This document shows positions 6,247 through 37,896 of a stretch of DNA of 64,000 nucleotides, piece by piece (the stretch's first letter is position 1; every line of letters begins with the position of its first letter). This DNA is from Microbacterium sp. SORGH_AS_1204. Its GTDB lineage: Bacteria; Actinomycetota; Actinomycetes; Actinomycetales; Microbacteriaceae. The notes beneath the pieces were generated by a model that saw nothing but the letters and a program-made list of their open reading frames with translations, did not search any database and was not told where the DNA came from. The stretch spans positions 1,488,001 through 1,552,000 of the forward strand of contig NZ_JAUTBD010000001.1 in the NCBI RefSeq assembly GCF_030818935.1, given 5' to 3'. A program made the position numbers and the translations under genes.

Positions 6247-7095
6247 TCAGAGCAGTCCGGGCAGCCGCTGCGCCAGCGCCCGCAGCGCGTCGGTCGTGCC
6301 GCCGTCGATCTTGACCGTCGCGCGCTGATCGGCCCGTGTCTCGCCGCGGTTGATGATGACGACCGGCAGGCGCTTGCGCCGTGCGCGCTCGACCAGCCGG
6401 ATGCCCGAGTTCACGACGAGCGACGACCCCGCCACGACGAGCGCGCCGCTGGTGTGGACGAGCTGCTCGGCCTCGCGGAACTTCTCCACCGGGATGTACT
6501 CGCCGAAGAACACGACGTCGGGCTTGAGCGTGCCCCCGCACACCGAGCACACCGGCACGATGAAACCGTCGGCGGATGCGGGTGTCACATCGCCGTCGGG
6601 ACCCAGTTCGACGTTGTCGGGCAGGGTGATCCACGGGTTGTCGGCCTCGACCCGCTCGGCGAGGTCGCGCCGGTCGAAGACCTGGCCGCACTGCAGGCAG
6701 CCCACCCGGCGCATGGTGCCGTGCAGCTCCACGACCCGTCCGCTGCCGGCGCGCACGTGCAGTCCGTCGACGTTCTGCGTGACGACGCCGTTCGCGACCC
6801 CCGCGGCCTCGAGTTCGGCGAGGGCGTGATGCCCGTCGTTGGGTTCGGCGGCGGCGAACACCTTCCACCCGAGATGACTGCCCACCCAGTAGCGCCGGCG
6901 CGCGTCGGCACTGGCGAGGAACTGCTGCGCCGTCATCGGCGTCCGCGTCGGCGCACCCTTGCCGCGATAGTCGGGGATCCCCGAGTCGGTCGACACGCCG
7001 GCGCCCGTCAGCACCGCGATCCGGCGGCCGGCGAGCACCTCGACAGCCCGATCGATGGATGCCGAGAACCCGGCATCCTTCGTCGTGTCGGTCAT
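6247..7095 (-). CDS. Sir2-family NAD-dependent protein deacylase
   Basis: 282 residues, typical sirtuin length. NAD-binding GAGVSTDSGIPDYRG at residues 31-45, the TQNVDGLHVRAG segment followed by the catalytic His in VELHG, two Cys pairs of the structural zinc (CLQCGQ and CSVCGG) and the C-terminal GSSLVVNSGIRLV. It removes acyl groups from lysines, consuming NAD. Start ATG 7095 is chosen because GGAGGTG lies just upstream; longer in-frame extensions have no ribosome site. Divergent from the methyltransferase gene at 7320. Confidence 0.94.
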   Translation of the reverse strand: MTDTTKDAGFSASIDRAVEVLAGRRIAVLTGAGVSTDSGIPDYRGKGAPTRTPMTAQQFLASADARRRYWVGSHLGWKVFAAAEPNDGHHALAELEAAGVANGVVTQNVDGLHVRAGSGRVVELHGTMRRVGCLQCGQVFDRRDLAERVEADNPWITLPDNVELGPDGDVTPASADGFIVPVCSVCGGTLKPDVVFFGEYIPVEKFREAEQLVHTSGALVVAGSSLVVNSGIRLVERARRKRLPVVIINRGETRADQRATVKIDGGTTDALRALAQRLPGLL

Positions 7096-7319
7096 GCACA
7101 CCTCCGTCGCATCGAGTCTAGAGCGGGGCGCCGACACCCGAGGCGCGATGCGCGCCGCGCGGCTCGGGCATCCCTGCGGTTCGTGCGGACACCGGGGCGA
7201 GTGTGCCCGACACCCGGGCCGTCTTCGCCGGCGTCCGCGTGCCGGGGACACCGAACGGACGGGGGCGCTCGACGCGGGCGGGGCGAGGCGAGGGGGAGCG
7301 CGGCTGGCACGATGGGACG

Positions 7320-8126
7320 ATGCCCGTCATCCCCCTCGACTCCGCCGACGACCCGCGCCTCGCCGACTACCGCGACCTCACCGACGTGTCGCTGCGGCGC
7401 GTGACCGAGCCCGCGGGCGGGCTGTACATCGCCGAGTCGTCGAAGGTGCTCGACCGGGCGCTCCGCGCCGGCCACCGCCCACGGTCGGTCCTCGTGCAGG
7501 AGAAGTTCCTCGCCGACGCGCTCGCTCTCGTGGGGGAGGATGCCGAGGTGTACGTCGTCCCGGCCGAGATCGCCGAGCAGGTCACCGGATACACCGTGCA
7601 CCGGGGGCTGCTGGCATCCATGCATCGCCCCGCCCTGGCATCCGTCGCGGAGGTCGTGAAGGACGCCCGTCTCGTCGTGGTGCTCGAAGACATCGTCGAC
7701 CACACCAACATCGGTGCCGCCTTCCGCTCGGCCGCTGCCCTCGGAGCGGATGCCGTGCTCGTGACGCCCCGGTGCGCCGACCCGCTCTACCGGCGCAGTG
7801 TGCGCGTGAGCATGGGCACCGTCTTTCAGGTGCCGTGGACGCGGCTGCCGGAATGGTCGGATGCCGCGCCGCTGCTGCACGACGCGGGGCTGCACCTCGC
7901 GGCGCTCGCGCTCTCGGACGACGCGGTCACCCTCGACGTGTTCTCGGCCGCGGGTCATGAGCGCGTCGCCCTGCTGCTCGGCGCCGAGGGCGACGGCCTC
8001 TCGCGCCGCGCGCTGGACGCCGCCGACACGGTCGTCACCATCCCCATGGCCGGGGGAGTGGACTCGCTCAACGTCGCCGCGGCGAGCGCCGTCGCGCTGT
8101 GGGAGTTGGGGCGCGGGCGGCGCTGA
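7320..8126 (+). CDS. TrmH/SpoU-family RNA 2'-O-ribose methyltransferase
   Basis: 268 residues. The N-terminal substrate-binding part (residues 1-100) precedes a SPOUT domain with all three motifs: EDIVDHTNIGAAFRSAAALG (motif 1, N and R), LLLGAEGDGLSR (motif 2) and IPMAGGVDSLNVAAASAVAL (motif 3). It methylates a ribose 2'-OH in tRNA or rRNA using S-adenosylmethionine. Start ATG 7320 gives the usual MPVIPLDS N-terminus; the in-frame extension upstream is GC-rich and unlike coding sequence. Confidence 0.92.
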   Translation: MPVIPLDSADDPRLADYRDLTDVSLRRVTEPAGGLYIAESSKVLDRALRAGHRPRSVLVQEKFLADALALVGEDAEVYVVPAEIAEQVTGYTVHRGLLASMHRPALASVAEVVKDARLVVVLEDIVDHTNIGAAFRSAAALGADAVLVTPRCADPLYRRSVRVSMGTVFQVPWTRLPEWSDAAPLLHDAGLHLAALALSDDAVTLDVFSAAGHERVALLLGAEGDGLSRRALDAADTVVTIPMAGGVDSLNVAAASAVALWELGRGRR

Positions 8127-8345
8127 GGCGGGCGCACGGGTCGTCGCCGAGGACTCAGGCCGCGTCGATGGGGTAGATGTCGCGGTACAGGCGCAGCCGA
8201 CCTGCGCGATGCGAGGGTCGCGGTCTGTCGTGCGTGCGCTGCGGCGCTCTTCTGTCGTGCCGGCGTGCGGCCGCTCCCGGCCGACCCTCGACCTCGGCGC
8301 GGGAGGTGTTACCTGACCGAAACACCCGCGTCACCCATTCGGCAA
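8127..8345. other. intergenic region with a possible gene remnant on the minus strand
   Basis: No complete gene. On the minus strand 8205-8155 reads RAGRLRLYRDIYPIDAA followed by a stop, which looks like a genuine protein C-terminus but has no convincing gene upstream of it. It may be the truncated end of a former convergent gene at the edge of the nitrile hydratase module. No riboswitch-like element was recognised here. Confidence 0.35.
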
Positions 8346-8373
8346 GCGTCAATGCGTCAATAAGTCATGACAC
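8346..8373 (-). promoter_or_regulatory. putative operator before the amidase gene, matching one before nthB
   Basis: Read on the minus strand this 28-bp stretch starts GTGTCA, contains TTGACGCA and ends TGACGC. It matches 13659-13686 at 22 of 28 positions when the two are aligned without gaps. It ends 64 bp before the amidase ATG. A likely binding site for the module's regulator (probably the ArsR-type protein at 11806), though binding is inference. Confidence 0.6.
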
Positions 8374-8437
8374 ATTCACGTCGGTCGCCGGCCGTCCCTC
8401 GGTCCGGTGATCGCAACGCTCGACGGAAGGACCGAAC

Positions 8438-9982
8438 ATGGCCGTGACCCGCCCGACGAAGGACGACGTGAGGGCGTTCGCGCAACGCTTCCGCTACGAC
8501 TACGACGAGTCCGAGGTCCACGAGCTGCACGCTCTCGCGGTCGGCGGGCTCGCCAGCTACGACGTGGTCGATCGGCTCTACGCGGCGCACGTCGAGGTCG
8601 AACCGCCCGTCCGGGAATCCCACCGCCCCCGCGACGAGGACAACCCGCTCGGGGCCTGGTATGTCCGCACCGAGATCGCTCCCACCTCCGGGGGAGTCCT
8701 CGACGGGCGCACGGTCGCCGTCAAGGACAACATCGCGGTCGCCGGCGTCCCGATGACGAACGGCTCGCGGACTCTTGAGGGCTACGTGCCCCGCGAGGAT
8801 GCGACCGTCGTCACGCGCGTCCTTGCGGCGGGAGCGACGATCCTCGGCAAGGCGGTATGCGAAGACCTGTGCTTCTCCGGGTCGAGTTTCACCTCGTCCA
8901 CCGGGCCGGTGCGCAATCCCTGGGACCACGGGCGCACGACGGGCGGATCCTCCAGCGGCAACGCCGCGCTGCTCGCCTCGGGAGAGGTCGATCTCGCGAT
9001 CGGCGGCGACCAGGGCGGCTCGGTGCGCCTCCCGGCATCCTTCTCGGGCGTCGTCGGACACAAGCCGACTTTCGGCCTCGTCCCCTACACCGGAGCCTTC
9101 CCGATCGAGCGGACGATCGACCACCTCGGCCCGATGGCCCGCACCGTCGAAGATGCCGCGCTGCTGCTGTCCGTGCTCGCCGGTGCGGACGGGCTCGACG
9201 CGCGTCAGGCGGAGGCTTTCCGTGGTCCGGGAGATCTCTCGACCATCGGCGCCGGAGTCTCGGGGCTGCGGATCGGCCTCGTCACCGAGGGATTCGGCAT
9301 CCCGGGCCTCTCCGATCCCGAGGTGGACGACATCGTCACCGCGGCGGCCGAGGCGCTGTCCGCGGACGGTGCCACGGTCACCCGCATCAGCGTTCCCGAG
9401 CACGCCGACGCCGGCGCTCTGTGGGGTGTCATCGCGACCGACGGGGCGACGTACCAGATGCTCGACGGCAATGGCTACGGCCTGGGTGTCCCCGGCTATT
9501 ACGACCCGCACCAGATGGAGCACTTCGCGCGGGGCAAGCTCGAGCGCGGTCACGCGCTCGCGGAGTCGGTCAAGGTGACGGCCCTGACGGGCGCTTGGGG
9601 GCTGCACGGCCTCGGCGGTGCCTCGTACGCCAAGGCCCAGCGCCTCGTGCCGTACGTGCGGGCCGGGTACGACGCGGCGCTGGCGCAGGTCGACGTGCTC
9701 GTCATGCCCACCGCCCCATTCACCGCGCTCGAGCTGCTGGAGGCCGGCGACGATCGCCCCGAATACCTCCGCAAGGCGCTCAGCATGATCGGGAACACGG
9801 CGCCCTTCGACGTCACCGGACACCCCGCCACCTCGGTGCCGGCGGGCTTGGCATCCGGTCTCCCGGTCGGACTCATGGTCGTCGCGCCGCGCTTCGACGA
9901 TGCGCTCGCCCTGCGCGTGGCCGCCGCCGTTCAGGCCCGGTGCGGCACTCTGACGCCGCCCGCGCTGGCCCAGCACGCCTGA
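8438..9982 (+). CDS. amidase signature family amidase
   Basis: 514-residue AS-family enzyme converting the amide produced by nitrile hydratase into acid and ammonia. Catalytic triad motifs: Lys in TVAVKDNIAVAG, cis-Ser in GGDQGGSVRLPAS and the nucleophile Ser region GRTTGGSSSGNAA. The N-terminal ~70-residue helical extension and overall length match amidases linked to nitrile hydratases. RBS ggaagga lies before the ATG. First gene of a unidirectional run amidase-cbtB-cbtA-phosphatase-like-arsR-sensor, preceded by the shared operator at 8346-8373. The co-location with a nitrile hydratase is the main argument for the substrate class. Confidence 0.93.
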   Translation: MAVTRPTKDDVRAFAQRFRYDYDESEVHELHALAVGGLASYDVVDRLYAAHVEVEPPVRESHRPRDEDNPLGAWYVRTEIAPTSGGVLDGRTVAVKDNIAVAGVPMTNGSRTLEGYVPREDATVVTRVLAAGATILGKAVCEDLCFSGSSFTSSTGPVRNPWDHGRTTGGSSSGNAALLASGEVDLAIGGDQGGSVRLPASFSGVVGHKPTFGLVPYTGAFPIERTIDHLGPMARTVEDAALLLSVLAGADGLDARQAEAFRGPGDLSTIGAGVSGLRIGLVTEGFGIPGLSDPEVDDIVTAAAEALSADGATVTRISVPEHADAGALWGVIATDGATYQMLDGNGYGLGVPGYYDPHQMEHFARGKLERGHALAESVKVTALTGAWGLHGLGGASYAKAQRLVPYVRAGYDAALAQVDVLVMPTAPFTALELLEAGDDRPEYLRKALSMIGNTAPFDVTGHPATSVPAGLASGLPVGLMVVAPRFDDALALRVAAAVQARCGTLTPPALAQHA

Positions 9983-28075: not shown

Positions 28076-29311
28076 GTTATAGGTCAGGAATAGTGGATGA
28101 ATCCTCGATCTAGCCGCGTGATTCCGGGGTAGAACGGGGATCGGTATGGTCCGCGACCCTTAGTCGTGGACCTTCCCTCGAATCAGGGCTCGTGCGTGGT
28201 ATGCGGGTCGAAGCTGGTGAAGAACGGACGACACCCCTCAGGAACGCAGCGGTGGCGGTGCCGGCCGTGCGGGTCCTCCACTATCCGTCGGCGCCCTGAC
28301 GTTACCCGCCGCGAACAGCTGCACCGGTTCCTGACCTGGCTGATGGGCAAGGCCTCACAGGCCGAGCTCGCCAGCTCCCGCAGCGCCCGCTCGTTCCGTC
28401 GCGACACCGCGTGGTGCTGGGCCCTCGAGCCGCGCCTGCCCGTCACAGGCGAAGTACACGAGGTGATCCTGGTCGATGGGATCTGGATCGAAACGTGGTG
28501 TCTACTCATCGCCCTCACCACCACCAACACCGTCGTGGGATGGCAGTGGGCCGCCCGCGAATCGGCTGCTGCCTGGGGCGCGCTGTTCGAGAGCATTCCC
28601 GCCCCGACGGTGGTGGTCACCGACGGCGGCTCCGGGATCCGTTCCGCCCTCGCCCTGCACTGGCCCGCCACCGCCATCCAACGCTGCATCTTCCACCTGC
28701 AGCTGAACGTCACCCGCGAACTGACAAGGAACCCGCGCCTGCGCGCCGGCAAAGACCTGCGCCAGATCGCCCTCGCCCTCAGCGGCATCCACACCGTCGA
28801 CGACGCCATCACCTGGCGCCTCACGCTGGAAGCCTGGTGGAAGACCTACGGGCACCTCCTGCGCGAACGCACCCTCTATGACAACGGCCACTTCGGTTAC
28901 ACCCACAAACCGCTCCGCAAAGCCTGGGCGATCTTGCACCGCGTCGCCGAGAACGAACACATGTTCACCTTCATCCGCCACGACGCCCCGCGCACCACCT
29001 CACGCCTCGAAGGACTCAACGCCCAGATCAGGCACCTCCTTCGCCATCACCGGGGCATGCCGATCCAGCATCAACGCCGCGCCGTCGAATGGTTCCTGCT
29101 GCTGCACGAAGTCCCCATCGACCACGCCCACAGCTACGCCCACGCCCCCACAACGCCAACCCCGCACGAGGACGCCACCATCGACCTCGAGGACCCCACC
29201 CCAACCCTCTACGACAACGGCCTCGACGCCACCGAAGGCCTCTGGCTCAGAACAGGATGGGCAGGACGAGGATGACACGCCCGACCCCATCCACTATTTC
29301 TGGCCTATAAG
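28076..29311 (+). mobile_element. IS1249-type insertion sequence (IS256 family)
   Basis: About 1.24 kb bounded by inverted repeats: the left end reads (G)TTATAGGTCAGGAATAGTGGATG and the right end, on the other strand, (C)TTATAGGCCAGAAATAGTGGATG, differing at three positions. One full-length transposase gene fills it. I could not identify a clean target-site duplication. It is inserted in the second copy of a duplicated tRNA-Leu 3' region. Confidence 0.85.
28166..29275 (+). CDS. IS1249-family transposase
   Basis: 369 residues. N-terminal zinc-ribbon-like CVVCGSKLVKNGRHPSG...CRPCG, then the mutator-type DDE catalytic domain: first Asp in VILVDGIWIETW, second in VVTDGGSGIRSAL with CIFHLQLNV, and the Glu in TTSRLEGLNAQIRHLLR. 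This arrangement is typical of IS1249 transposases of actinobacteria. GTG start. The frame is intact, so the element may be active. Confidence 0.92.
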   Translation: MDLPSNQGSCVVCGSKLVKNGRHPSGTQRWRCRPCGSSTIRRRPDVTRREQLHRFLTWLMGKASQAELASSRSARSFRRDTAWCWALEPRLPVTGEVHEVILVDGIWIETWCLLIALTTTNTVVGWQWAARESAAAWGALFESIPAPTVVVTDGGSGIRSALALHWPATAIQRCIFHLQLNVTRELTRNPRLRAGKDLRQIALALSGIHTVDDAITWRLTLEAWWKTYGHLLRERTLYDNGHFGYTHKPLRKAWAILHRVAENEHMFTFIRHDAPRTTSRLEGLNAQIRHLLRHHRGMPIQHQRRAVEWFLLLHEVPIDHAHSYAHAPTTPTPHEDATIDLEDPTPTLYDNGLDATEGLWLRTGWAGRG

Positions 29312-30999: not shown

Positions 31000-31848
31000 A
31001 TGCATATCTTCGAGGTCATCATCCTCGGGCTCGTTCAGGGCCTCACCGAATTCCTCCCCATCTCTTCCAGTGCGCACCTGCGCATCGTGGGCGAGTTCCT
31101 CCCGTCGCAGACCGACCCCGGCGCGACCTTCACCGCCATCACGCAGATCGGCACCGAGCTCGCCGTGCTGATCTACTTCCGCGCGAAGATCGCCCGCGTC
31201 ATCTCGCGGTGGTTCCTTTCGCTCAGCGGCAAGGTGCCGCGCAACGACCCCGACGCCCGCATGGGCTGGCTCGTGATCATCGGCACCATCCCCATCGCCC
31301 TCCTCGGCGTGCTGCTGCAGAGCCTGATCCGCGACAACTTCCGCAGCCTCTGGATCACCGCTGTCGTGCTCATCGTCTTCGGCATCCTGCTGGGCCTCGC
31401 CGACCACTACGGCAAGCGCCGCCGCGACCTCGACGACCTCACCTACCCGCACGGCATCGCGTACGGATTCGCCCAGGCCCTCGCCCTCGTTCCCGGCGTC
31501 TCGCGGTCGGGCGCCACCACCACGCTGGGCCGCGCGCTCGGCTACAAGCGCACCGCCGTGGCCGAGTACTCGTTCCTGCTGGCGGTGCCCGCCGTGTTCG
31601 CTAGCGGACTGTTCGAGCTGTACAAGAGCTTCGACGAAGGCACCGGCCCCTACAACCTGGGCGAGACGGCCGTCGCGACGGTCATCGCGTTCGTCGTCGG
31701 TTACCTCGTGATCGCCTTCCTGATGCAGTACCTCAAGCGCGGCAGCTTCCTGCCGTTCGTGATCTACCGCGTGGCGCTCGGCATCCTCGTCATCGTGCTG
31801 CTGCTGCTCGGTGTCGTTCCGGCCGAGTCGGCCATCATGGCCGGCTGA
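31000..31848 (+). CDS. uppP: undecaprenyl-diphosphatase
   Basis: 282-residue polytopic membrane enzyme that removes a phosphate from undecaprenyl diphosphate to recycle the lipid carrier of cell wall synthesis. The two catalytic repeats are present: [18 protein letters not shown] at the N-terminus (Glu17 in TEF) and [16 protein letters not shown] in the second half. Full length, about eight transmembrane helices. RBS gaagga upstream of the ATG. Its product confers basal bacitracin tolerance in many species. Confidence 0.96.
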
Positions 31849-32157: not shown

Positions 32158-33180
32158 TCAGAACCCGATGGCCGCCCGGTAGCGCGGCTTGTGTCCGGTG
32201 CGGATACCGGTGACGCTCGGCTTGTTCTCGTACACGCCCGCGCCCCAGTTGCCCTCGACGAGCACGGGGCCGTCGGGGCCGACGACGATGTCCCAACCGA
32301 CGTACTGCACCTGGGGCACGACGCGGGCGACCTGGTCGACGAACGCCGTGACCTCGTCGATCATCGGCAGCTGGAAGTCGGCGATGCGCACGCCCGAGTC
32401 GGGGTGCACCTCGTGCACGTGGCCGTGCGAGTCGTAGCCGGCCCCGAGGGCGTGACCGTTCTCGTCGAGCATCGTGTAGAAGCCGCCGAAGGTCATCTGG
32501 TCGCTGACGGCGCCGCGGCCGAACTTCTGCGCCATCGCGAGGATGTGGGTCTTCTGCCCGTCGAAGAACGCTGTCACGCGCGTGGTGTTCACGGTTCCGG
32601 GGCAGACGGCAGCGAGGTCGTCGTGCTGGCGGATGACCTCTTCGACGAGGATCTCGCCCCGCTCGAGCAGGCCACGGTGGAATGCGCCCCAGTCCTCGAC
32701 CTCGGCGGCGTGGTAGCGGTGCACGCCGGTGCCGGCCTGACCGACCGGCTCCTTGGTGACGATGGTGCCGAGGCGCTCGGTGAACGCGCGCAGCTCGTCG
32801 GCGTTGTCGGCATCCACCACCATCCAGTCCCGGCGCAGGAACTCGCTGAAGCGGCGGTCGAAGGCCACCTTGTCTTGGAAGATGCCGCGGAAGTCGGGGT
32901 GGTCGTACTTCTGCGAGATCTGGTTCGACACCGGGTGCGTCATGTAGGTCGCACGCTCGGCCGGGGTGAGGATGGCGAAGTCGTAGTCGATGTAGTCCTG
33001 GAACCCGACGTTCTTCACGCCCGCCTGGAAGAGCATGTCGGCGACGACCAGCGGCATGGCCTTGCCGTGCTGGGCCGACGCCTCTTTGGCTCGTTCGATC
33101 ACCGAGCCCACATCGATGCGGCGGGCGCGATCGGCGAGGTAGCGCAGACGGGTGACGGGGGAGAAGCCCTGGCTAGGCAT
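32158..33180 (-). CDS. sugar-transfer-associated ATP-grasp protein
   Basis: 340 residues matching the ATP-grasp family associated with sugar-transfer and cell surface clusters. Features are an N-terminal helical part, KYDHPDFRGIFQDKVAFDRRF, the ATP-binding TKEPVGQAGTGVHRY loop, a strand with GEILVEEVI and the C-terminal metal/ATP site DIVVGPDGPVLVEGNWGAG. Such enzymes join a carboxylate to an amine or thiol using ATP; the substrate here is unknown. It is divergent (45 bp) from a pair of alanine racemase-like genes, which suggests a shared role with D-amino acids or the cell envelope. Confidence 0.82.
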   Translation of the reverse strand: MPSQGFSPVTRLRYLADRARRIDVGSVIERAKEASAQHGKAMPLVVADMLFQAGVKNVGFQDYIDYDFAILTPAERATYMTHPVSNQISQKYDHPDFRGIFQDKVAFDRRFSEFLRRDWMVVDADNADELRAFTERLGTIVTKEPVGQAGTGVHRYHAAEVEDWGAFHRGLLERGEILVEEVIRQHDDLAAVCPGTVNTTRVTAFFDGQKTHILAMAQKFGRGAVSDQMTFGGFYTMLDENGHALGAGYDSHGHVHEVHPDSGVRIADFQLPMIDEVTAFVDQVARVVPQVQYVGWDIVVGPDGPVLVEGNWGAGVYENKPSVTGIRTGHKPRYRAAIGF

Positions 33181-33225
33181 GCACGCTCCGGGGTCGGGGA
33201 TGACGGACCCCGTTAGTCTAGATGC

Positions 33226-33861
33226 GTGACCTCCACGCTCCCCGCCCGCACGCCCGGGGCCGGGGGAGTCGCCCCGGTGGCCCTCCTCTCCAAGGCCGCG
33301 CTACGGCGCAATGCGTCGCGGGCGGTGGGCGGTGACGACGACGTGCTCGCTGCCGACGGCTGGGGCCACGGTGCCGAGTGGGTGGCATCCGTGCTGTCTG
33401 AACAGGGCTTGGATGCCGCCGGCCTCGACGCCGCGACACTGTTCGGTCTGCCGGGCTCCGACGCGCGACCGGTGCTGTCGCTGCGCGGCCGCGCGTTGGG
33501 TACGAAGCCGCTGCTGCGGGGCGAGGGAGTGTCGTACGGGTACACGCACCGCGCGGCGGACGACACCACCGTCGCCCTGGTGACGGGGGGCTACGCACAG
33601 GGCATCGTGCGTTCGCTGGGGAACACCGCCACCGTCGCGATCGACGGGCGCCGCCACCGGATCGTGGGCCGCGTGGCGATGGACGTCTGCGTCGTCGACG
33701 TCGGCCACACGCCGGTCTCCCGCGGGGCGGAGGTCGTGTTCTTCGGCGATCCGGCGCGCGACGAGCCCTCCCTGGCGGAATGGACGGATGCCACGGGCTG
33801 GAGCGCAGCCGAGATCGTCGCCGTCGTGGGCGCGCGAGCCGAGCGCCGGGTGTCGGCGTGA
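33226..33861 (+). CDS. alanine racemase C-terminal-domain protein with deleted barrel
   Basis: 211 residues. It starts with a relic of the barrel's first strand (LLSKAALRRNASRAV, DVLAADGWGHGAEW) in which the PLP-binding Lys is missing, then jumps to a full alanine racemase C-terminal domain: GVSYGYTH (Tyr104, equivalent to the catalytic Tyr), VTGGYAQGIVRSLGN and IVGRVAMDVCVVDVGH. On its own it cannot bind PLP. Its stop overlaps the start of the next gene, which supplies the barrel and Lys. GTG start; a tagtctagat just before the start suggests a very short leader. Confidence 0.8.
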   Translation: MTSTLPARTPGAGGVAPVALLSKAALRRNASRAVGGDDDVLAADGWGHGAEWVASVLSEQGLDAAGLDAATLFGLPGSDARPVLSLRGRALGTKPLLRGEGVSYGYTHRAADDTTVALVTGGYAQGIVRSLGNTATVAIDGRRHRIVGRVAMDVCVVDVGHTPVSRGAEVVFFGDPARDEPSLAEWTDATGWSAAEIVAVVGARAERRVSA

Positions 33862-34889
33862 GCGCCGAGTATCGCGTCGACCTGGGCGCCTTCCGTCAAA
33901 ACCTCCGCCGCGTCCGCGAGGCCGTCGCCCCGGCGGCGCACATGCTCGTCGTGAAAGACGATGCGTACGCCCACGGTCTCGAGACGCTCGTTCGCGAAGC
34001 CCGGGACGAGGGCGTGCGCTGGTTCGGGGCGTTCGATGTCGCCACCGGCGCGGCCGTGCGGGCGATCACCGGCCCCGACGCGCGCATCTTCGTCTGGCTG
34101 ATCGGGGGCGCCGACGACCTGCGCGCCGGCGTCGCCGCCGACCTCGATCTCGGCATCGGCGACGAGGCGCTCCTCGACGACCTCGCGGCTCTCTCAGCCG
34201 CTCCGGCCCGCCTGCACCTGAAGATCGACACGGGCCTGCACCGCAACGGCATCCGTCCGGAGCGCTGGGATGCTGCGCTCACACGCACCGCCGAGCTCGT
34301 CGGTCAGGGCCGAGCGGTTCTCGAGGGGATCTGGTCGCACATCTCGGAAGCCTCGGATGCCGACGACGACGACGCCCGCGCGCTCTTCCTCGCCGCGCGC
34401 GACGCGGCGCGCGCCGCCGGCCTCGTGCCCCGTTACTCGCACCTCGCCGCCAGCGCCGCCGGATTCGCTCGCGGAGAGTTCCGCGAAGACCTCGTGCGCG
34501 TCGGGGCGTTCTCGTACGGCATCCGTCCTGCCGGAGGCCCGGGCGAGGCGGAGCTCGGCATCGAGCCCATCGCGGCCCTGGTCGCCACGGTCACCGCCGT
34601 CGGCCCGGCGGGCGTGCATCTCGACATCGGCAGCCTGCACGGGCTCCCGAGCGCCCTGAGCGGTCGGTTCGATGTCGCCACCCCGGCGGGGCCGCGCCGC
34701 GTGGAGGCGATCGGTGCGACCTCGACGGCCGTCGCCGTGTGGGACGACGCGCGGGTCGGCGACGAGATCGCCGTCTTCGGGCGGGGAGCCCTGCGAAGCG
34801 CGACGGACCTCGCCGAGCTGATCGACACCATCGGCGAAGAGATCGCGTTGCGCGTCTCCCCGTCGATACCCCGGGTGTACCGGGGCTGA
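33858..34889 (+). CDS. alanine racemase-like PLP-barrel protein with truncated C-terminal domain
   Basis: 343 residues. The PLP-dependent barrel is intact, with Lys33 in VVKDDAYAHG and LHLKIDTGLHRNGIRP, YSHLAASAA and VRVGAFSYGI downstream. The C-terminal domain keeps its end (IGEEIALRV...IPRVYRG) but lacks the VSYG and GYADG motifs that hold the catalytic Tyr. Alanine racemases work as dimers whose active site combines Lys of one chain with Tyr of the other, so pairing with the product of 33226-33861 would restore a site. GTG start overlaps the previous TGA. Substrate could be Ala, Ser or another amino acid. Confidence 0.82.
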   Translation: MSAEYRVDLGAFRQNLRRVREAVAPAAHMLVVKDDAYAHGLETLVREARDEGVRWFGAFDVATGAAVRAITGPDARIFVWLIGGADDLRAGVAADLDLGIGDEALLDDLAALSAAPARLHLKIDTGLHRNGIRPERWDAALTRTAELVGQGRAVLEGIWSHISEASDADDDDARALFLAARDAARAAGLVPRYSHLAASAAGFARGEFREDLVRVGAFSYGIRPAGGPGEAELGIEPIAALVATVTAVGPAGVHLDIGSLHGLPSALSGRFDVATPAGPRRVEAIGATSTAVAVWDDARVGDEIAVFGRGALRSATDLAELIDTIGEEIALRVSPSIPRVYRG

Positions 34890-34896
34890 AACGCAG

Positions 34897-34940
34897 AACG
34901 GGCCCCGCCTCACTCGCTCAGGGAGTGATCGGGGCCCGTT
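34897..34940. terminator. bidirectional terminator hairpin
   Basis: Outer 11-bp stem AACGGGCCCCG / CGGGGCCCGTT with a second pairing cactc/gagtg inside, between the racemase gene and the convergent small protein gene. Confidence 0.85.
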
Positions 34941-34953
34941 GCCGACGGAGGGC

Positions 34954-35172
34954 TCAGTCGGCGGAGGTGAGGCGTGCCGTCTCGTCGTGCCACGAGGTGG
35001 CGACGCTGCGGAGCTTCTCTTCGTACTTGCGGCCGTGGTGAGCGCAGAACAGCAGCTCGCTGCCGTTCACCTCCGCGGCGATGTAGGCCTGTGCGCCGCA
35101 GGAGTCGCAGCGATCCGCCGCCGTCAGGCGGTGGTCGAGAACAGTCGCGTCGGGTGCAGTCGTGGTGGTCAT
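34954..35172 (-). CDS. small DUF7455-type conserved protein
   Basis: 72 residues. Two short Cys motifs, CDSCGAQAY and LLFCAHHGRKYEEKL, could bind zinc. Proteins of this size and sequence are common next to parE in actinobacteria; the function is unknown. Start ATG 35172 is chosen for the ggaggg upstream. It is divergent from parE with 165 bp between them. Confidence 0.8.
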   Translation of the reverse strand: MTTTTAPDATVLDHRLTAADRCDSCGAQAYIAAEVNGSELLFCAHHGRKYEEKLRSVATSWHDETARLTSAD

Positions 35173-35337
35173 CTCGGGTGCCCTCCTCATGTGGTCGTGG
35201 GCGAGTCTCCATATACAACCACGCGGATGTTTCCCCTATGCCGCGCCTTGATCACATTTCGCTGTGCGCGTACGGTGGCCCAGGCCCGCTGTGTGTCTGG
35301 CAGGCGATGTCGGTGGCCCCGATTACGCTGGCTAACC

Positions 35338-37407: not shown

Positions 37408-37896
37408 CCGCACCGCCGCACGGGCCCGCTCGGTGCGGCGGTGCGCACGCGCCACGGGACGTGGGCGATACGCCGCGCCGCCGCCGTTTCGTGCCGGCGC
37501 GCCGCTGACGATCGCCCCGCGGCCGTGCCCGGGCGTCACCGCCGCACGGCCGCGCCCGTGCACAATGGCAGAGATCCCGCACGACACGCCGCGACGCCGG
37601 CGTCTGCACCGGCGTGTCTCCCACAATCCCCGCAGCTGTGCACGGGCACCGCGACCGCGGGGCCTCCCCGCAGCTGTGCGCGGGCACCGGGGCCGCGGGG
37701 CATTCCCGCAGCGCCGCCGCGGGCACCGCCGCCCCCGTGCACAACGGCAGAGGTCATACCCGACACGCCGCGTCGACGGCGTCTGCACCGGCGTGTCTCC
37801 CACAATCCCCGCAGCTGTGCACGGGCGCCGCGACCGCGGGGCACCCCGCAGCTGTGCACGGGCGCCGCGACCGCGGCGACGCCCGCCGGCTCGGGC
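37408..37896. repeat. 489-bp repeat region between convergent parE and parC
   Basis: Two ~93-nt direct repeats (37555-37647 and 37734-37826) each hold a hairpin gacacgccg...cggcgtgtc inside outer arms built on cccgtgcacaa and cagctgtgcacggg. Additional copies of ccccgcagctgtgcacgggc(g/a)ccgcgaccg occur at about 37669 and 37846. Open frames through it are artefacts of the repeats. It presumably also terminates both genes. Confidence 0.85.

Follow-up and report, generated by a model that had tools for sequence, protein, structure and literature searches.

Alanine racemases of the Alr type (EC 5.1.1.1, TIGR00492), such as those of S. lavendulae (1vfh) and M. tuberculosis (1xfc), combine a common fold and pyridoxal 5'-phosphate (PLP) barrel motifs with a two-base mechanism in which a lysine and a tyrosine come from different chains. 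To our knowledge, all known racemases of this fold are homodimers. Here, we analyzed two adjacent genes, A and B, in a 64,000-nucleotide stretch of the Microbacterium sp. SORGH_AS_1204 genome (contig NZ_JAUTBD010000001.1, positions 1,488,001 to 1,552,000; hereafter the window). Both products resemble Alr in fold, barrel motifs and the two-base arrangement, but their bases lie on two gene products, one active site per pair is expected, Glu or Asp stands at position 354, and each chain falls under the family cut-off. Taken together, our comparison makes it reasonably likely that A and B form an obligate heterodimeric racemase that acts on a cationic diamino acid and feeds the cross-bridge of group-B peptidoglycan.

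Other described systems share single features with this locus. Paralogue pairs of the prozyme type, as in trypanosomatid deoxyhypusine synthase, are poor enzymes alone and form a working site together; they differ from A/B in fold and pathway, and the loss in A/B consists of the deletion of whole structural elements. A module resembling the lipid II isoglutaminyl synthase MurT/GatD recurs next to the pair: Pfam supports the resemblance in Agreia, Pseudoclavibacter and several Microbacterium, as do PDB sequence matches for MurT of locus L064 and GatD of locus L059. Unlike in that amidotransferase, the GatD of the neighboring module lacks the glutaminase cysteine, and we propose that the module couples an amino acid instead. 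Lysine racemase Lyr (4dza) and the Bar/Bsr enzymes (4dyj, 4beu) have the Alr fold with a changed Tyr354 gate and take larger or cationic substrates. Passages of PMC3485190 describe Tyr265' and Tyr354 as a gate that restricts the site to alanine, opened by Thr391 in Lyr and by Ala393 in the broad-specificity enzyme Bar, both of which are described there as lacking Lys129. Unlike A/B, these enzymes form homodimers, and each chain carries both bases; B has an acid rather than a small residue at 354, and the combination of a small residue there with the loss of Lys129 was not found in it.

Gene A (33226..33861, plus strand, GTG start) encodes a truncated Alr homologue of 211 residues, consisting of the C-terminal beta domain and a barrel stub. 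Its sole Pfam match is Ala_racemase_C (105 bits, residues 83-208), and its motifs include GRVAMD and VSYG, the latter with Tyr104 (codon 33535..33537) in the place of the catalytic Tyr265'. The stub of about 43 residues reads DVLAADGWGHG where the canonical Alr of the same genome reads VVKADGYGHG, and thus the PLP-lysine position is Ala42 (codon 33349..33351). Gene B (33858..34889, plus strand, GTG start) encodes a homologue of 343 residues with a full (alpha/beta)8 barrel. In Pfam it matches Ala_racemase_N over its full length (149 bits, profile 1-220/220) and Ala_racemase_C marginally and in part (25.6 bits against a cut-off of 25, profile 37-127). The barrel carries VVKDDAYAHG, in which Lys33 (codon 33954..33956) corresponds to the PLP Schiff-base Lys39 of B. 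stearothermophilus Alr, together with HLKIDTGLHRNG and LVRVG. The C-domain lacks the catalytic-tyrosine loop: the VSYG segment is deleted, and GYADG and GRxAMD are altered.

The PLP-lysine and the catalytic tyrosine, which one chain of an alanine racemase holds together, were therefore found in B only and in A only, respectively. Both proteins also missed the TIGR00492 equivalog cut-off of 168 bits (97 for A, 113.6 for B). Since each lacks defining features of an alanine racemase, we classified neither as such; as a pair they probably function like an alanine racemase. The two genes overlap by 4 bp (GTGA, 33858..33861), the stop of A running into the start of B, and are likely translationally coupled. 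The overlap had been reported in an earlier note on this DNA, which had also described B as keeping the barrel and Lys33 without VSYG and GYADG. That account of B holds, and we add that its C-domain is still present and folds. For A, the retained C-domain and Tyr104 and the lost PLP-lysine stand, whereas the barrel, which the note had considered lost, persists as the folded stub.

A full-length canonical alr, which the note had suggested looking for, was found elsewhere in the genome (G000:C1:2907659-2908729, minus strand). Thus, the A/B pair is not the housekeeping enzyme, and a replacement of housekeeping alr by the pair was rejected. We obtained AlphaFold models of the single chains using alignments of the loci gathered here, and PDB matches by Foldseek. 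The model of B had a predicted local distance difference test (pLDDT) score of 96.0 and a predicted template modelling (pTM) score of 0.92, with the C-domain still folding; that of A reached 92.8 and 0.88, with the barrel stub folded at high confidence. The top PDB matches of both were alanine racemases. B showed the two-domain Alr fold (TM-score 0.92 to 1vfh, by query length), and A alone matched Alr with its C-domain and barrel stub only. Because the models are single-chain, the arrangement of an A-B dimer would follow from homology to the solved Alr family, in which the active site combines the lysine of one chain with the tyrosine of the other (PMC3485190, in part).

The main evidence for such a dimer comes from relatives. 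We searched for gene A in 398 genomes of the family and for a gene B profile in 397, and extended the B search to 248 genomes of the order and to a named collection (best 80 of 590 candidates). We assembled 113 distinct tandem pairs, 102 split and 11 with two full-length copies; as pairs were chosen mainly by a short B-profile match, plus a small number of representative long matches, 102:11 is no frequency. The split pairs span 24 genus labels of one family as well as named records (L048, L096 and L102 being titled above genus only). In their A proteins, Tyr265' and Met312 were each present in 102/102, and position 313 was Asp in 91 and Asn in 11. The PLP-lysine position of A was R in 63, A in 13, D in 6, S in 6, G in 4, T in 3, E in 2, P in 1 and a gap in 3; the single K scored (L151) is an alignment artefact in which the segment is absent, the other 101/102 being non-lysine or gap. 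In the B proteins, Lys39, Arg136 and Arg219 were each kept in 102/102, and the Tyr265 position was deleted in 102/102. Both catalytic residues were present in both copies of the 11 full-length tandems. The gap between the genes was projected as -4 or -1 in 49/102 split pairs, and no internal stops occurred in the listed A/B matches.

That 102 split pairs share this complementary loss excludes chance. The loss is real and more general than the single locus showed, and it is not local decay. We consider it highly probable that A and B form a heterodimer. The earlier proposal of a heterodimer with one site per pair gains strong support from this comparison, namely from the reciprocal loss, the 11 full-length tandems, the tight spacing and a low ratio of nonsynonymous to synonymous substitution rates (dN/dS).

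With the B profile, 83/248 genomes of the order matched at E <= 1e-75; among the matches listed, none outside the family exceeded 290 bits, and those were of canonical length. Within the family-wide B search, 11/15 Microbacterium genomes carried the pair, counting a divergent one in G433. That pair (L211, 3492-5101) lies in reverse orientation, adjoins MurT-GatD and seems to have been either gained independently or inherited from an old lineage.

In the model that we propose, A and B assemble as an obligate heterodimer into a PLP-dependent racemase with the alanine-racemase fold. The B subunit would contribute the barrel, PLP on Lys33, and the arginines that bind PLP and the carboxylate. A would dock its C-domain onto the B barrel and bring the second base, Tyr104, over the dimer interface, and it would also contribute Met152/Asp153 and the gate arginines Arg129/Arg149. 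The AB pair would hold one active site and interconvert the L- and D-forms of a diamino acid, expected to be ornithine (Orn) in many Microbacterium and 2,4-diaminobutyrate (DAB) or lysine in other lineages.

To predict the substrate, we examined the position of the alanine gate. The residue aligned with Tyr354 was acidic in 113/113 B proteins (70 Glu, 43 Asp); in the window it is Glu327 (codon 34836..34838), so that gene B lacks the inner-gate tyrosine of an alanine racemase. Lys129 was kept in 106/113. Unpaired homologues had Tyr at 354 in 57/59, and the two exceptions, L152 (Glu) and L192 (Asp), also lacked Tyr265 and fell inside the B clade. An acid in place of Tyr354 in every B predicts a cationic diamino-acid substrate, and we regard a diamino acid as the likely one. 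Among the assay substrates suggested earlier (Ala, Ser, Glu, Lys and Orn), the acid would point to a diamino acid.

It is unlikely, though conceivable, that the AB heterodimer racemizes a neutral (Ala, Ser), catabolic or signalling amino acid with no tie to the cross-bridge. Membership in the Alr fold family would fit such a role, and the M20 peptidase and UppP encoded in the window specify no substrate. However, the acid at 354 is universal in B, charged residues at this position of another Alr are described as reducing alanine activity (PMC4517790, in part), and the neighbors of the pair are D-Glu-type or other amide ligases.

In another explanation, A has no catalytic role and serves B or the canonical Alr as a regulator or chaperone, and B uses a different PLP chemistry without a second base. 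The antizyme inhibitor of the ornithine decarboxylase system offers a parallel, A has no PLP site, and B has the full PLP barrel. But this would leave unexplained why Tyr265', Met312 and Asp/Asn313 are invariant on the donated catalytic face (102/102), and the racemase arginines are kept in B; we consider this explanation quite improbable. Even fainter is the case for mixed dimers, in which A and B would each pair with a protomer of the canonical Alr. The domains are still homologous, the C-domain of A being 48% identical to the genome's own Alr over 128 residues. Against this, the genes are tightly paired and jointly present, and the second interface of the barrel-less A has gone together with the tyrosine loop of B, as expected if A faces B.

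The history of the pair also agrees with an A/B heterodimer. In the barrel tree, all B's, split or full-length, formed one clade (support 0.985), and in the C-domain tree all split A's formed one clade (0.863). The split-A clade was joined (0.979) by full-length first copies from the tandems of three genus labels, and the remaining six full-length first copies clustered with canonical Alr. In four genomes of genus label g58, the A barrel is full-length and degenerate, with Asp at the lysine position; elsewhere the remnant is partial, in Microbacterium it is a stub, and in genus label g2 it is nearly gone. We read this graded loss as stages of one process, and the full-length tandems are likely the ancestral state. 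In L199, L200, L201, L204 and L030, the second full-length copy has G, T or N in place of Lys129, with the other scored catalytic residues intact. Five related genomes (the window genome, L056, L058, L066 and L130), compared in 10 pairs, gave dN/dS values of 0.14-0.39 (A) and 0.15-0.36 (B). That A and B are decaying alr duplicates with no joint function is barely worth entertaining. In its favor, both are degenerate, a canonical alr is present and the Microbacterium A/B diverge faster than the ATP-grasp protein (often 45-60% versus about 80% identity) and canonical Alr. Complementary retention in 102/102 over 24 genus labels, dN/dS of at most 0.39, the lack of stops in the listed matches and the tight spacing all argue against it.

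The cross-bridge of group-B peptidoglycan is defined by its start from the alpha-carboxyl of D-glutamate (D-Glu), and Microbacteriaceae are noted for such walls. Gly-D-Glu is described as the marker peptide of this group (PMC4156110, in part), D-Lys, D-Orn and DAB are mentioned for Microbacteriaceae (PMC7033078, in part), and Microbacterium walls are listed with D-Orn, L-Lys or DAB depending on the clade (PMC10757982, in part). We propose that the D-diamino acid made by the pair would feed this cross-bridge on the D-Glu alpha-carboxyl. A ligase module would attach it, with or without Gly, to the D-Glu of the wall precursor: an ATP-grasp and a CofE-like protein in the window genome, and MurT with a GatD lacking the cysteine in relatives. 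A role of A/B in the cross-bridge is probable, and the proposal predicts that the pair is present with D-Orn walls and absent with L-Lys walls. A narrow literature search found no paper naming genes for the group-B cross-bridge or its D-diamino acids, and one on heterodimeric alanine racemase, also narrow and made partly by titles and abstract starts, yielded nothing useful.

Where the flanks could be read, the pair in most cases adjoins parE, with one of two modules close by and rpoD farther out; at a few loci, neither module lay within the stretch examined. The first module is MurT-GatD, found in Agreia, Pseudoclavibacter, M. aoyamense, M. aurantiacum, M. resistens and many other genomes. 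The second is a CofE-like protein (PF01996), often with an ATP-grasp protein. A gene of L053 first read as GatD was rejected as such, since Pfam gives CofE-like. In the window, an ATP-grasp ligase of 340 residues (PF14397, 109.4 bits against a cut-off of 31.4; 32158..33180, minus strand) is divergent from gene A and predicted to be a cross-bridge amino-acid ligase. The 45 bp between them (33181..33225) may serve as a shared promoter region; a sigma-70 consensus was sought there and none was found.

We compared the modules in 119 Microbacterium genomes, with a completeness of 95% or more apart from the window genome (94.9%), taking E < 1e-190 as a strong MurT match. The ATP-grasp was present in 96, the CofE-like protein in the same 96, and strong MurT in the other 23, three of which (G578, G580, G581) were assigned by absence from both the ATP-grasp and the CofE positive lists. 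Two ATP-grasp genomes (G541, G552) gave a weak MurT match (E about 1e-9, 33-34%), which we took for another Mur ligase. Thus, MurT and ATP-grasp with CofE are mutually exclusive in these genomes. The ATP-grasp, which the earlier note had linked to the pair, is indeed its divergent neighbor and accompanies it in many Microbacterium. As a fixed partner it was rejected, because it is absent in 23/119 genomes, those with strong MurT; it belongs to one of two exclusive ligase sets.

Gene B (E < 1e-50) was found in 99/119 of these genomes. Among the 99, an ATP-grasp of at least 66% identity occurred in 68, a pair of 45-49% and 36-40% copies in 8, and MurT in 23. All 20 genomes without B carry ATP-grasp/CofE with divergent ATP-grasp copies: nine have a 56-60% copy and 11 a tandem of roughly 37-42% (partly cut in G470), and three of the 20 also have a 70-72% copy. 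Nineteen of them had a single Alr-like match, and G470 had a second, weak one. The interval was inspected in seven pair-negative genomes; six had rpoD, CofE, ATP-grasp and parE with no A/B, and the stretch of the seventh (G470) reaches neither rpoD nor parE. On a ParE tree of 77 loci, with weak deep support and a few loci being duplicate fetches, parsimony requires 15 module switches. In L066 (M. enclense, 6613-8821), the usual single ATP-grasp gives way to two divergent ones, 38% and 46% identical to that of the window, A/B being otherwise close.

In 18 named genomes, the ATP-grasp was found in eight, and seven of these loci had CofE (L043, L045, L053, L054, L058, L063, L066), the flank of L048 being short. 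Among the 10 without it, MurT-GatD was found in L038, L059, L064, L086, L097 and, by Pfam, L096; no module was seen in the flanks of L041, L046, L069 and L107, to which the search was confined. The gene neighborhood and the module swapping support the cross-bridge role put forward in the earlier note. We hold it evenly balanced whether a group-B cross-bridge island occupies the rpoD-parE interval of Microbacteriaceae. In such an island, the A+B racemase would stand beside one of two swappable ligase modules that link the bridge to the D-Glu alpha-carboxyl rather than amidate it, and would have arisen from a full-length Alr tandem, first by gaining the acid at 354 and then by the loss of complementary halves.

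The GatD of pair-linked loci aligns to S. aureus GatD (5n9m) without its catalytic cysteine. The cysteine was present in 0/60 sequences from pair-carrying genomes, a few being repeat fetches (e.g. L017/L131, L034/L135, L038/L149), versus 25/25 from other families of the order. Fifty-eight of the GatD rows represent 56 loci, and L218 is an island without the pair in a genome that has the pair elsewhere. The controls were the best 30 of 44 matching genomes (119 searched), minus five of Microbacteriaceae, and the rows of these five all lacked the cysteine. The catalytic histidine is also partly lost, being kept in 23/60. In L233, L236 and L238 (genus labels g79 and g80), GatD likewise has no cysteine, and no short B-type match was seen there. 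The loss of the glutaminase may be family-wide. In S. aureus, Gly at the GatD cysteine is described as abolishing lipid II amidation (PMC6085368, in part). A GatD without the catalytic cysteine is unlikely to supply ammonia. Together with the predicted D-diamino-acid racemase and a bridge that starts from the D-Glu alpha-carboxyl, this suggests that MurT here joins an amino acid instead of amidating.

Several observations weigh against a racemase that supplies a D-diamino acid to the cross-bridge. M. enclense is listed with L-lysine (PMC10757982, in part), and a genome labelled M. enclense (L066) carries the pair, with its different ATP-grasp set; the isomer or the strain may differ. The pair is also fast-evolving. 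In split pairs, the mean pairwise identity is 0.44 for the A C-domain, 0.33 for the A barrel stub, 0.46 for the B barrel and 0.39 for the B C-domain, and 14 canonical Alr of the family have 0.69 for the C-domain and 0.54 for the barrel. With 0.44 versus 0.39, the catalytic C-domain of A is barely better conserved than the spare one of B. Three genus labels have full-length tandems in which B has lost the carbamylated Lys129. Glu or Asp at 354 goes with clades (Asp in 33/33 of one B subclade; 70 Glu and 10 Asp in the other), has no obvious match in side-chain length, and may reflect history. Finally, many genera of the family showed canonical-length Alr matches only in the family searches; as this is a group-B family, another source of D-diamino acids must exist there.

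Around the pair, the window genome has its own arrangement. An M20 peptidase gene and uppP, encoding the undecaprenyl pyrophosphatase UppP/BacA (31000..31848, plus strand), precede the ATP-grasp gene. UppP was not found in the relatives' flanks examined, several of which carry rpoD-CofE at that place. The island of the window genome is broken, with CofE and rpoD about 145 kb away. A transposase of the Mutator/Mutator-like element (MULE) family at 28166-29275, upstream of the broken island, is possibly linked to the rearrangement that parted CofE-rpoD from the ATP-grasp. On the other side, an open frame (34910-35218, minus strand) lies between gene B and the parE-like gene. Farther on, the interval between the parE-like gene and a convergent gyrase/topoisomerase A-like gene contains GC-rich repeats, both direct and inverted (37411-37891), with five copies of a 48-nt unit and two of a 125-nt unit.

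New relative to the earlier note are the acid at 354 in every B and the finding that the pair adjoins either MurT with a cysteine-less GatD, or a CofE-like protein and/or an ATP-grasp. If the proposed reading is true, A/B would be a natural heterodimeric racemase with one active site, whose evolutionary intermediates survive in living genomes. It would also provide concrete candidate genes for the supply of D-Orn, D-DAB or D-Lys and for cross-bridge ligation in group-B peptidoglycan.

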